A stretch of 64,000 nucleotides of DNA from Pyrococcus sp. ST04 (GTDB taxonomy: Archaea > Methanobacteriota_B > Thermococci > Thermococcales > Thermococcaceae). Under the pieces are notes generated by a model that was not told the DNA's origin, did not search any database, and saw only the letters and a list, made by a program, of their open reading frames with translations. Shown here one piece after another: positions 48,001-52,268 of the stretch (within the stretch, counting starts at the first letter, position 1; each line of letters opens with the position of its first letter). The translations under genes and the position numbers were made by a program. The DNA lies in the NCBI RefSeq assembly GCF_000263735.1, contig NC_017946.1, positions 62,001-126,000 on the forward strand, in the 5' to 3' direction.

Positions 48001-48558
48001 ATTTTCATATTGTGTTATTTTTTTGTTTGGTTGGTGTTATTTTGTGTTATGCTGGTTTTTTCATTTGTAGAGTTGGGGTTAATGCATTGAGTACTCGAGG
48101 ATTGAAGCACTGCTCGGGGTCGAGATTCAAAAAACAAGCAATAATGAGAAAGTAAAACAAGAATAAGACCATAAAAACTGATTTAGTTTTCAGATTACCC
48201 CGCCAGTAGTAATTCCCTGCCAATTGAATACATTTGAAAACTGGGGGTTCTCATAAGTCTAATTAGGGAGTGAAGGCGGGAGACCCCAAAATTGGATAGT
48301 CTAGGAGGTCTAGTTAAGCATTGTTTTTGGATTCTCTTGGTTTTAGGTAATTTTTTCATTTTCAACATGCTTCGATTTCTTGAATTCTCGTTTTAACTAT
48401 TCACAATCCTCCACTCGTTAGTGAGAGAGTTTTCGTGAGTTCTTCATTTTAGGGTTGGGTTTATAAAGGGAGTGCAGTAGCACGGGTTTCCTGAAGGGGT
48501 AAATTATTTAAGCCTTGGGGAGGGAGTAATGAAGGAAAACAACCAAAAAAAACCCAAA
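48001..48558 (+). promoter_or_regulatory. CRISPR leader
   Basis: AT-rich, non-coding stretch between the cas1 promoter and repeat 1. TATA-like boxes are TTTATAAA (48460-48467) and ATTATTTAA (48503-48511); the second would start transcription about 25 bases before repeat 1. Near the left end there are short direct copies of TGTGTTAT (three between 48010 and 48050) that could bind a protein. Purine-rich AGGGAGT occurs twice near the right end. I see no protein-coding frame worth calling. It holds the expected site of new spacer integration at its right edge. Confidence 0.8.
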
Positions 48559-49134
48559 GTTTCCGAAGAACTAAATAGTATGGAAAGTTTCCCTTATCTC
48601 ATACATTGCCGATCACCAATTGTATGGTTTCCGAAGAACTAAATAGTATGGAAAGCTGGTAAATGGTGGGTCGGTCGGTAATACTAGCGAGCAGCAAAGT
48701 TTCCGAAGAACTAAATAGTATGGAAAGAGATTACCGTCAATTCTATATGTAACTACTGCGAACCACCAGTTTCCGAAGAACTAAATAGTATGGAAAGACG
48801 TTGCCTGCTCGACTGATATAATGCCATCTCTAACCGGTTTCCGAAGAACTAAATAGTATGGAAAGTGTCCAATTCTCTTTTATGTCTTTTGAAAACAAAT
48901 CAGTTTCCGAAGAACTAAATAGTATGGAAAGCCCTCTTCAAAAACGCTAACAACCTCAGATATCCAAGTTTCCGAAGAACTAAATAGTATGGAAAGTTGT
49001 CCATCGGGTGCAGCACCCATGTACATTTTTGTGGTTTCCGAAGAACTAAATAGTATGGAAAGGACTTCAAGGATAACAAAATCGCCGAGGTTGGTTTTCT
49101 GGGCAGTTTCCGAAGAACTAAATAGTATAGAAAG
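48559..49134 (+). CRISPR. CRISPR array: 9 repeats, 8 spacers
   Basis: Nine 29-base repeats starting GTTTCCGAAGAAC and ending AAATAGTATGGAAAG, at 48559, 48627, 48699, 48769, 48837, 48903, 48968, 49034 and 49106. Repeats 1-8 are identical; repeat 9 has one change (G to A at position 24). Spacers are 39, 43, 41, 39, 37, 36, 37 and 43 bases. The last eight repeat bases, ATGGAAAG, match the style of the Pyrococcus crRNA 5' tag (AUUGAAAG in P. furiosus), so crRNAs are read rightward and the leader is on the left. No spacer matches other parts of this window that I noticed. Confidence 0.98.
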
Positions 49135-49222
49135 AGTTCCCTTTAGCCCGCGAGAACGACCTCGAGGGCGCCGAAAGGTTCCTCGAAGGGTTTTTGATTC
49201 TTACCCCTTTTGTCCGATTTTA

Positions 49223-49335
49223 TGAAACTTCCACTTTCACAGATGGTGTGATTTGTGAAAGTCCGTTTTCATAAAATCGGCCCTTTGTGAAAGTAGGCTT
49301 TCACAAATCTTATAAATTATGAAAGCGGACTTTCA
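49223..49335 (+). promoter_or_regulatory. four phased palindromes over the ATPase promoter
   Basis: Four copies of a palindrome of the form TGAAAG-N4-CTTTCA occur at 49223-49239 (17 bases, imperfect), 49256-49271 (TGAAAGTCCGTTTTCA), 49288-49303 (TGAAAGTAGGCTTTCA) and 49320-49335 (TGAAAGCGGACTTTCA). Start-to-start distances are 33, 32 and 32 bases, close to three helical turns. A TATA box CTTATAAAT (49309-49317) lies between copies 3 and 4; copy 4 covers the expected start site and ends 3 bases before ATG 49339. In addition, CCGATTTTATGAAA pairs with TTTCATAAAATCGG across copies 1-2. Confidence 0.75.
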
Positions 49336-49338
49336 CAT

Positions 49339-50655
49339 ATGGCGATAAAGATAGTTAGGCTCGTGAAGCACAACCCCTGGTGGAAGAGCGAAGGCTGGGA
49401 GAAAGAGGACAGGGACCTGTCGAGGACCAGGGAGATAATTCCGAGGAAGCGCGTTGAGGTGAAGGAGGGTTCCGTAACACTTCTCAGGGGAATCCGACGG
49501 GCGGGCAAGAGCTTCTACATCAAGACGCTGATAAAGGCCCTCATCGAGAACGGCACGGACCCGAGAAGGATAGCCTACATTCCCTGCGACAGGTTCACGG
49601 GGGGAGAGGTAAGGGCCTTCATAGACGAGTTGAGGCTCAGACACGGTGAGCTCTACGTCTTCCTCGACGAGATAACCTACCTGAGGGGCTGGAGGCTTCT
49701 TCTCAAGGAGCTCGGCGAGGAGGGCGTAACCACCGTCGCCACTGGCTCGAACCCGGTGGAGCTGAAGCGCGAGAGCGAGCTCCTTCCCGGGAGGGGGATA
49801 GAGGGCAACGAGTACTACTTCAACCCCCTGAGCTTCCGCGAGTTCGCGCGCTTCATGAGGCCCAAACTACCCGATGTGTCCTTCACCTACAGGGAGCCCG
49901 ATGTCGATGAGCTCTTCCCTTGGTATGAAGAGCTTGAAGGCCTCTTCTACGCCTACCTCCAGACAGGTGGCTTTCCAGAGGCGGTTCTGGAGTTCAGGCG
50001 CGATGGGAAGGTGAAGCCAGAGCGGTACGAGGAGCTGATCCGCCTCATCCTCGGGGAAATCGCAAAGTCCGGAAAGAGTGAGGAGACGGCAAGGGAACTC
50101 CTTGAGGCCATATTCCGGCTGAGGGGCAACAGGGTTGATTACGTTAGCCTGGCCCGGGAAATCGGGGTCTCCCACCCGACAGTGCGGGAGTATCTCTCAA
50201 CGCTGGAGAGGGCGAGGGTGTTATACACGCTGGAGGCATGGGACGTAACCAGAAAGCGCCACGCTCACAGGAAGGAGAAAAAGATAATCTTCCAGAGCCC
50301 ACTCATAGCGACGGCCCTCGCCGTCTACCTCGGGGAGGAGCCGGTGGAGTTCGTCGAGGGCAACATTGAGTGGCTCGTGGAGCACACCGTCGCGTCTCAC
50401 GTTATCTGGCACCTTGAAGAGCCGGTTCTCAGGGAGAAGCACGCCTTTGCAGGATTCTATTACAACGGCTCGAAGGAGTGCGACATTGTCATAAGGGATG
50501 GGGGTTTCTTCGGCATCGAGGTCAAGTACGGCCGGGTGAAGCGAAAGGGCTACCCATTTCCGGTGCTCTACCTCTCGAAGGACGAGCTCGGTCAGGATGT
50601 TATCCCAACATCGCTCTACCTCTATGGCCTGGAGAAGAGCAGAAGGTCAATATAA
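49339..50655 (+). CDS. AAA ATPase with DUF4143-type nuclease-like C terminus
   Basis: A 438-residue archaeal ATPase. Walker A is GIRRAGKS (about residues 51-58), Walker B LYVFLDEITYL (about 106-116), and a sensor element VATGSNPVEL follows. A winged-helix-like region (YVSLAREIGVSHPTVREYLSTL, about 275-296) may bind DNA. The C terminus has KECDIVIRDGGFFGIEVKYG, which has the D-X(n)-E-X-K pattern of PD-(D/E)XK nucleases. Such proteins are common, multi-copy and of unsettled function in Thermococcales. Its base composition is much richer in GC than its neighbours, suggesting transfer. The mRNA is probably leaderless. Confidence 0.85.
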   Translation: MAIKIVRLVKHNPWWKSEGWEKEDRDLSRTREIIPRKRVEVKEGSVTLLRGIRRAGKSFYIKTLIKALIENGTDPRRIAYIPCDRFTGGEVRAFIDELRLRHGELYVFLDEITYLRGWRLLLKELGEEGVTTVATGSNPVELKRESELLPGRGIEGNEYYFNPLSFREFARFMRPKLPDVSFTYREPDVDELFPWYEELEGLFYAYLQTGGFPEAVLEFRRDGKVKPERYEELIRLILGEIAKSGKSEETARELLEAIFRLRGNRVDYVSLAREIGVSHPTVREYLSTLERARVLYTLEAWDVTRKRHAHRKEKKIIFQSPLIATALAVYLGEEPVEFVEGNIEWLVEHTVASHVIWHLEEPVLREKHAFAGFYYNGSKECDIVIRDGGFFGIEVKYGRVKRKGYPFPVLYLSKDELGQDVIPTSLYLYGLEKSRRSI

Positions 50656-50971
50656 TTTTAAACCCCCAGGTTCCAGTTTAGGCACGTCCCTGGGCGAGGG
50701 AGGGTTTCTGCCTGACGAGGGAGCCGTTCTCGATAACCTCAACCCCTAAATACCTAAGCGGACTTCTCCACATTCAAGAGGTCAGCTCGATGTACCCGCC
50801 CGTTGCCCTTGAACCCGGACTCGGTGAAACCATCGCAAACATGGCCGCCGCCCCCAGTGGGAAGACGAGCCACATGGCACAGCTGATGGAGAACGAATCC
50901 TACTCGATGCTCCCTGTACCGGCTCGGGGACAATACACAAAAGAGCATAACAGTTGTGCTTCTTGTTCCAA
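50656..50971. other. unassigned GC-rich tail of the insert
   Basis: No convincing gene. On the minus strand one frame reads a membrane-like stretch (MWLVFPLGAAAMFAMVS) up to a stop near 50783. The same frame resumes directly with MWRSPLRYLGVEVIENG and stops near 50680. This could be an eroded gene carried with the insert, but I recognise no family. The last 35-40 bases (about 50932-50971) return to AT-rich sequence and may be the remains of a CRISPR spacer. Confidence 0.35.
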
Positions 50972-51000
50972 GTTTCCGAAGAACTAAATAGCGCAGAAAA
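50972..51000 (+). repeat. decayed CRISPR repeat beyond the insert
   Basis: The first 20 bases (GTTTCCGAAGAACTAAATAG) are identical to the array repeat. The last nine, CGCAGAAAA, differ at five places from TATGGAAAG. The change at position 24 (G to A) is shared with repeat 9. Decay at the leader-distal end is usual for CRISPR arrays, so this looks like the original array terminus. Confidence 0.85.
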
Positions 51001-51058: not shown

Positions 51059-51955
51059 CTAGAGGAATTTGCTTTTAATGGCCTCTCCAATTGCCCTAGC
51101 CAGAGGGGGAGGAACAGCTTCACCAACACTATCAAATTGCACATTTCTTCCACCTAGGAAGACGAAATTGTCTGGAAATCCCATAAGCCTTGCTTGTTCC
51201 CTTACAGTCAAGGGTCTGTCTTCGAATGGATGAACGAACCTACTACTACCCCTAACCGTAGGAGAGGGCCTATAGGGGTGTAATCTGATCCAGTTCTTGA
51301 ACCTTCCAAAGCCCTGAGCCCCTTCTCCCCACTTTAGGTAAGGGATCCTCCTAGCTATCTTAGAGGGGGGATTCCAGAACTCGTGGTTTGGAAGGTTGGG
51401 AGGAATATCACTAAGAACGTCCCAGACTTTTTTCGGTCCTTTAACTTTTCTTGGTCTTATCTTAATGTTCGAAATAAAAACCCTCCTCCTTATCTGAGGG
51501 ACACCATAGTCTAAGGCATTCAAAATGTTGAACTCTACTGAATATCCCGCCCTGTCGAATTCTTTTACAAGATAATCCTCCAGCTCCATTATCTGTGGAA
51601 CGTTCTCCATGATGAATATCTCTGGTTTCAATTCCCTAACAAATCTTATGAACTCCAGAACAAGTCTGCCTATTGGATCTTTGTACAACCTGTCTCTGGG
51701 ATTTTCCTTCCTCTTCTGATTTATAGCGGTAAAAGGCTCACATGGAGGCCCTCCAATTATGATGTCAACGCTCGGGAACTCTCTTGGGTTTAAGGATTTT
51801 ATATCACTAACATGAACCTTAACGTCAGGAAAGTTCAGGGTGTACGTTTTGGCTTTAGGCTTGAAGTTCTCAACAGCCGCTACTATCTTAAATCCTGCAA
51901 GCTTGAATCCCAGGGAAAAGCCCCCAGCTCCCGCAAATAAGTCAAGAACCTTCAT
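51059..51955 (-). CDS. DNA (cytosine-5) methyltransferase
   Basis: A 298-residue C5 cytosine methyltransferase. SAM-binding motif I is DLFAGAGGFSLGFKLAG near the start, motif IV is GGPPCEPFTAI with the catalytic Cys (residue about 83), motif VI is MENVP, and motif VIII QIRRRVFI follows. The C-terminal motifs X (GEAVPPPLARAIGEAI) are also present. Motif IV reads PCE instead of the usual PCQ. No restriction endonuclease gene is adjacent. ATG 51955 is the family start; the longer frame overlaps rpoL. Target sequence is unknown. Confidence 0.9.
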   Translation of the reverse strand: MKVLDLFAGAGGFSLGFKLAGFKIVAAVENFKPKAKTYTLNFPDVKVHVSDIKSLNPREFPSVDIIIGGPPCEPFTAINQKRKENPRDRLYKDPIGRLVLEFIRFVRELKPEIFIMENVPQIMELEDYLVKEFDRAGYSVEFNILNALDYGVPQIRRRVFISNIKIRPRKVKGPKKVWDVLSDIPPNLPNHEFWNPPSKIARRIPYLKWGEGAQGFGRFKNWIRLHPYRPSPTVRGSSRFVHPFEDRPLTVREQARLMGFPDNFVFLGGRNVQFDSVGEAVPPPLARAIGEAIKSKFL

Positions 51956-51974
51956 GATTGGAGAAAAGGAGAGG

Positions 51975-52268
51975 CTACTTTTTCTTTTTGATTGCCTTCT
52001 CCCACACTTCAAGTGTTTCCTTTGCTCTTTCGAATATCTTCTTTGCAGCTTCCTCTAAGGCTTGCTCTGGCGTTACTTTCCCATCCGTAACTACCCTAAA
52101 CCTCGGCTTCCTAGCCATCGTTATTGGGTGCTCTATTGTGTATGCTGTGAACTTCACGTGTGGATTCTCTCTTAGAGTTTCAACGAGGAGGTTGGCAAAC
52201 GTGTGATCTTCCCCTTCTAGATAGAACTCAAGCAGGTTCTCCTCCCTCTTTATGACCTCTATCTTCAT
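51975..52268 (-). CDS. rpoL: DNA-directed RNA polymerase subunit L
   Basis: Small assembly subunit of archaeal RNA polymerase (Rpb11 homolog) that pairs with subunit D. The 97-residue protein has the alpha-like motif [21 protein letters not shown] near residue 19 and [23 protein letters not shown] 52268 follows GGGTGAGG. It overlaps the DUF2067 gene by 41 bases in a different frame, so the two are coupled. Confidence 0.96.

Follow-up and report, generated by a model that had tools for sequence, protein, structure and literature searches.

According to the literature, archaeal CRISPR arrays are rarely interrupted by insertions, and the cases encountered there are IS elements or pieces of plasmids. 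The nearest precedent for the locus described here is CRISPR locus F of Sulfolobus solfataricus, in which an 899-bp fragment resembling plasmid pNOB8 lies between two repeats (PMC4390879). Insertion sequences have interrupted arrays in S. solfataricus (ISC1359, PMC3025118) and in CRISPR2 of Escherichia coli ATCC 8739 (PMC2886076). With regard to the repeats themselves, the penultimate and ultimate repeats of Pyrococcus abyssi arrays carry one to six mismatches (PMC3124441), and arrays of Escherichia and Salmonella as a rule end in 3'-degenerate repeats (PMC2886076).

The locus analysed here belongs to a complete, single-contig Pyrococcus chromosome of 1,736,885 bp (the host), and positions refer to the window, i.e. 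the whole 64-kb stretch of DNA under analysis. As in locus F, two repeats of an archaeal array are separated by foreign DNA that is not a spacer; as in the IS cases, the interruption lies inside the repeat-spacer region. In contrast to the plasmid-like fragment of locus F, however, the segment found here stems from the chromosome of another genus and carries an intact gene next to a truncated one, and a relative of its donor can be identified; unlike the IS elements, which arrived by transposition, it encodes no transposase. The locus is a clear case of DNA acquired horizontally by an array, in kind no different from its precedents, and neither a parasite nor a new module or system. Here an array insert can be traced to chromosomal DNA of a different genus, and the gene that used to lie beside it can still be recognised.

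Array structure

A repeat scan revealed nine repeats starting at 48559, 48627, 48699, 48769, 48837, 48903, 48968, 49034 and 49106, of which the first eight are identical (GTTTCCGAAGAACTAAATAGTATGGAAAG) and the ninth carries a single change, G24A. Near-identical repeats, regular spacing, unique spacers and a leader identify the locus as a CRISPR array, and its repeats belong to the type I-B family of the host. One additional copy (GTTTCCGAAGAACTAAATAGCGCAGAAAA) follows at a distance, matching in all of its first 20 bases and in four of its last nine, while no further match with up to eight mismatches was found in the 64-kb window; an exact 20-base match would be expected by chance approximately 1e-7 times in a sequence of this length. 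The original prediction of an array ending at 49134 in a one-change repeat, followed by a GC-rich AAA/DUF4143 ATPase gene and a decayed repeat copy at 50972-51000, thus agrees with the scan and with the intact reading frame found between the repeats (Table 1).

Table 1. Features of the interrupted array and of the segment between its last two repeats (window positions).
Feature	Position	Strand	Evidence and remarks
Array leader	48010..48558	+	94-96% identity, over ~547 bp, to leaders of three other host arrays
CRISPR array, nine repeats and eight intact spacers (36-43 nt)	48559..49134	+	Repeat scan, spacers
Repeat 9 (penultimate), G24A	49106..49134	+	Repeat scan
Left residue, 14 bp; probable left part of last spacer	49135..49148	+	No donor homology; donor alignment starts at 49149
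Inserted Thermococcaceae DNA	49149..50940	+	Collinear blocks of 95%, 87% and 93% identity with G039:C2:387870-389998
3' end of donor gene upstream of ATPase, cut by insertion junction	49149..49200	+	Junction inspection
Operator-like palindrome 4 (outermost)	49221..49241	.	Sequence comparison; 1-bp insertion relative to donor
Operator-like palindrome TGTGAAAGTCCGTTTTCATA (-85)	49254..49273	.	Sequence
Operator-like palindrome TGTGAAAGTAGGCTTTCACA (-53)	49286..49305	.	Sequence
TATA-box-like TTATAAA	49310..49316	+	Sequence; conserved upstream of homologues; position fits leaderless transcript
Operator-like palindrome TATGAAAGCGGACTTTCACA (-21)	49318..49337	.	Sequence; end adjoins start codon
AAA_14/DUF4143 ATPase, intact, 438 aa	49339..50655	+	Walker A and Walker B motifs; nuclease-like E-x-D...E-V-K
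NSUN-type RNA m5C methyltransferase pseudogene remnant	50671..50940	+	Deletions of ~200 bp and ~140 bp, 1-bp frameshift
Right residue, 31 bp; probable right part of last spacer	50941..50971	+	No donor homology (donor alignment)
Terminal (leader-distal) repeat, 3' end eroded	50972..51000	+	Repeat scan; arrays L042 and L043 alike

The distant copy shows the hallmarks of a CRISPR terminal repeat, namely a leader-distal position, an intact 5' part and an eroded 3' part, and it agrees in position and polarity with the terminal repeats of two other host arrays (L042, GTTTCCGAAGAACTTAGTAGTATTGAGAA; L043, GTTTCCGAAGAACTAAATAGTATTCGCTT), in which the 5' part is likewise well preserved and the 3' end ruined. 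As these are eroded in the same manner, we conclude from the sequence comparison that the copy at 50972 is the ordinary terminal repeat of this array, which places the ATPase segment inside the array, and that repeat 9 is the penultimate repeat, or was so before the event if units were lost. The mismatch counts (one in the penultimate and five in the last repeat) and the 3' erosion resemble the degenerate terminal repeats published for Pyrococcus (PMC3124441), with the difference that here a 1.8-kb foreign segment separates the two. The change at position 24 that the original prediction noted in repeat 9 and in the decayed copy is indeed common to both, but since the last copy is altered throughout positions 21-24 and at position 29, the shared A24 is weak evidence of kinship.

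Peculiarities at the distal end were seen in other host arrays as well. The last repeat of the array at L041 7781-8560 (G000:C1, ~177.8-178.6 kb) is perfect and shows no degeneration. After it come a VapB-like gene and a short, probably truncated VapC-like gene (79 aa), located between the GC-rich inverted sequences CAAGCCTCGCCCT...AGGGCGAGGCTTG, and here too an insertion may have cost the array its terminal repeat. In another array (L043 8569-8608; G000:C1, ~1466.6 kb), 11 bp are duplicated within the penultimate repeat (GAACTAAATAAGAACTAAATAG), a distal-repeat change that resembles slippage.

Origin of the inserted segment

Comparison with 94 genomes of the family revealed that positions 49149-50666 are 95% identical to G039:C2:387870-389385, a stretch of a Thermococcaceae chromosome that belongs to another genus than the host and is taken here as Thermococcus; the next best genome reached 77%. 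Downstream of the ATPase gene, two remnants at 50671-50896 and 50895-50940 follow in the order and orientation of the gene located after the ATPase in G039, which encodes an NSUN-type RNA methyltransferase, and retain 87% and 93% identity to it. The whole segment measures ~1.79 kb in the window and ~2.13 kb in the corresponding span of G039. The host's own NSUN gene is intact elsewhere (L039 8019-8948).

In several genomes of the Thermococcus type, the genus of G039, the ATPase gene lies between argF and the NSUN gene. One of the compared genomes (G016) lacks the ATPase at this position, yet retains three operator palindromes with 32-bp spacing directly before the NSUN gene. We read these palindromes as a deletion scar, and the interval between argF and NSUN is accordingly an old home of the ATPase gene. 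Taken together, the remnants of the donor's neighbouring genes, the position between argF and NSUN and the relics in G016 point to a transfer from a Thermococcus-type chromosome into the Pyrococcus array, in which G039 represents a relative of the donor and not the exact donor. The GC content of the ATPase gene (57.7%) and in particular its GC3 of 78%, compared with 41-48% in neighbouring genes, indicate that the transfer was recent.

Seven other Pyrococcus genomes with this locus contain the methyltransferase gene found at 51059-52012 of the window, and none of them has the ATPase there. An ATPase gene adjoining the methyltransferase without any array, the arrangement by which the array would have grown beside an older gene, was accordingly not seen among these relatives. 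The absence of the gene from the locus in these genomes, together with its Thermococcus-like composition and identity, rules out that the ATPase is native to the locus or older than the array. The methyltransferase adjoins apgM in four genomes (G001, G002, G003 and G005), a few kb lie between the two in G004 and G007, and in the window apgM has the opposite orientation to that in every Pyrococcus relative checked, with CRISPR-cas genes around it (window 30537-51000 compared with L030-L035). As apgM is thus adjoining, set apart or inverted depending on the genome, the interval between apgM and the methyltransferase is a hot spot of rearrangement. In G007 this interval contains an AAA ATPase gene unrelated to the present one, and in G003 a CRISPR array adjoins apgM.

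Insertion site and alternative explanations

Between the donor homology and the flanking repeats lie the residues AGTTCCCTTTAGCC and AAGAGCATAACAGTTGTGCTTCTTGTTCCAA, which add up to 45 bp and fall within the length range of the 34 other host spacers (36-54 nt). Identity to the donor-like sequence drops abruptly from ~90-95% at both ends. Inspection of the junctions revealed no target duplication and microhomology of at most a base or two, from which we infer non-homologous joining. Integration guided by homology between spacer and donor was ruled out, as the right residue and the donor locus have no word of 10 or more bases in common, and a search of viral contigs for the protospacer yielded no exact 20-base match to the right residue.

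The simplest reading of the 45-bp residue, a single spacer split by the insertion, is moderately supported, since two independent breakpoints in different spacers would by our computation also leave a spacer-sized sum in 38% of cases. The fragment might accordingly have replaced several distal repeat-spacer units by a deletion combined with the insertion, a possible but rather unlikely course, even though deletions within archaeal arrays are common (PMC3025118). It would require the additional deletion, whereas splitting one spacer would be expected to leave just such a residue of 45 bp, and judging by published Pyrococcus arrays the two last repeats could well have been direct neighbours (PMC3124441). 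The uninterrupted site, which the original prediction had envisaged in related genomes, was found neither in 93 other genomes of the family, searched with the right residue at up to three mismatches, nor in GTDB contigs, and for this reason one split spacer and several replaced units are indistinguishable by sequence alone. The same searches yielded no protospacer either.

The repeats on both sides, both carrying A24, could also be taken to mean that the fragment is a giant spacer, integrated by Cas1-Cas2 with duplication of a repeat, and that the common A24 is a trace of this duplication. A spacer acquired in this manner would be expected to consist of ~35-50 nt of foreign DNA abutting the repeats, however, whereas the present segment spans 1.8 kb, its donor homology stops short of both repeats with unrelated sequence in between, it lies at the array's old end, and four more positions distinguish the flanking repeats. 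We therefore rule out this very improbable route on account of the non-donor residues at both ends. Hardly any probability attaches to the reading that the ATPase is a parasite or mobile element which disarmed the array by transposing into it, although DUF4143 ATPase genes are numerous and patchily distributed in Pyrococcus and in Sulfolobus an IS element is known to have entered a spacer that matches it (PMC3025118). The insert, consisting of the ATPase gene and a pseudogene, ends inside neighbouring donor genes and not at cassette edges, which rules out a transposon or mobile cassette; it lacks terminal repeats, target duplication and transposase, and no second site was found that carries the same cassette with constant ends. 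The possibility that a parasite had disarmed the array likewise finds no support in the array itself, in which at most the oldest spacer or spacers were lost while the leader, cas1, cas2, cas4 and cas3 and eight spacers are intact. An insertion into the leader-distal end, as originally predicted, is thereby retained in the sense that foreign DNA with the ATPase gene lies between the last two repeats, but not in the sense of an array-targeting mobile module. An artificial joining of Thermococcus DNA to the array by misassembly or contamination, for which the high identity to another genus and the jump in GC content might speak, is equally implausible: the chromosome is a complete single contig, no compared genome is identical to the insert (95% at best), the neighbour gene has decayed naturally, and on the right side the array's own terminal repeat is followed by conserved Pyrococcus synteny.

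The reconstruction that we consider very probable starts from the donor-type identity and collinearity, the nature of the terminal repeat, the position of the insertion, the intact ATPase and its decayed neighbour, all of which we take as established, and assumes that a chromosomal fragment of the Thermococcus type was non-homologously joined into the last spacer. Thermococcus-type DNA would have been taken up as free or vesicle-borne DNA, providing a donor fragment of ~2.1 kb with the 3' end of one gene, the whole ATPase gene including promoter and operator, and two-thirds of the NSUN gene from its 5' end. This fragment would have been end-joined in a single event into a break in the last and oldest spacer, between repeat 9 and the terminal repeat, presumably splitting it into parts of 14 and 31 bp. 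The change may have been tolerated because old spacers are dispensable. Subsequently, the methyltransferase piece would have decayed by deletions, while the ATPase gene was kept intact, probably as a useful or at least functional gene. The case hence documents a gene transfer from Thermococcus to Pyrococcus, apparently by non-homologous integration, and illustrates how DNA can be taken in at the old end of an array without damage to its remaining part. A broader idea appears improbable to us: breaks made or tolerated in arrays during adaptation would capture chromosomal DNA of other species by end-joining, so that the landing place would be no accident and arrays would serve as sites of gene capture, and the autoregulated candidate defence ATPase would be kept as a component of the immune locus, possibly transcribed with the array on the same strand.

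ATPase gene and promoter

The ATPase product matched the Pfam families PF13173 (AAA_14; 74.1 bits, gathering cut-off 27) and PF13635 (DUF4143; 61.7 bits, gathering cut-off 28.1). It shares 422 of 438 amino acids with the donor-like copy, with no indel in 1314 nt. Comparison of the two genes gave dN of ~0.02, dS of ~0.17-0.21 and thus dN/dS of ~0.1, a ratio that covers evolution in the donor lineage as well and does not separate out selection after the transfer. The ATPase gene is intact while its former neighbour, the NSUN gene, is wrecked. Maintenance after the transfer is likely, not proven, as most of the divergence may date from the donor lineage.

The Walker motifs and the E-x-D...E-V-K motif (E380, D382, E394 and K396) are invariant in 18 homologues. 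A weak structure prediction (pLDDT 69) yielded 50 listed PDB matches, which were mostly AAA+ and winged-helix proteins and included no nuclease. We describe the product as a predicted AAA ATPase that contains a winged-helix part and ends in a putative PD-(D/E)XK nuclease.

PADLOC analysis revealed matches to several models of PDC-S01 (best E 1.2e-32), with approximately two thirds of the best model covered. PDC-S01, which a 2026 description ranks fourth in frequency among prokaryotic defences, is a candidate family that is experimentally unvalidated (PMC12988326); the ATPase resembles it in matching several of its models and differs in their partial coverage, and is accordingly regarded as a PDC-S01 candidate defence gene. 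The alternative raised in the original prediction, a defence gene carried with the array, is possible as far as the function of the gene is concerned, but the association with arrays is not recurrent: among the array positions listed, in part, for G001-G004 and G007, no other DUF4143 gene was located within 5 kb of an array of the same repeat family. No recurrent association was thus seen in these Pyrococcus genomes, and the presence of the ATPase in an array appears to be a single event.

Upstream of the ATPase start codon, 20-bp palindromes (TRTGAAAGNNNNCTTTCAYA) are positioned at exactly -21, -53 and -85, and in most homologues from Thermococcaceae also at -117, with a phase of 32 bp or approximately three helical turns. 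Such palindromes precede ATPase homologues at L072 4942-5057 as well as at L074, L048, L050, L051 and others, which reveals a conserved, phased operator-like sequence in front of the gene. No other cluster of this type than that at 49221-49337 was found in the host genome; its exclusive location at the ATPase gene suggests autoregulation, possibly by the protein's own winged helix. By all appearances, the ATPase gene has kept its own phased-palindrome promoter at the new site.

As the sole DUF4143 protein of the host, in comparison with 2 to 13 in other Pyrococcus genomes, this apparently maintained PDC-S01 candidate offers a convenient target for a knock-out. In one of the other genomes (L037 2222-14904; G005:C1, ~896-909 kb), six or more AAA ATPase genes, which belong to different families, nearly adjoin each other; several of them are DUF4143 genes, one being a homologue of the ATPase described here.
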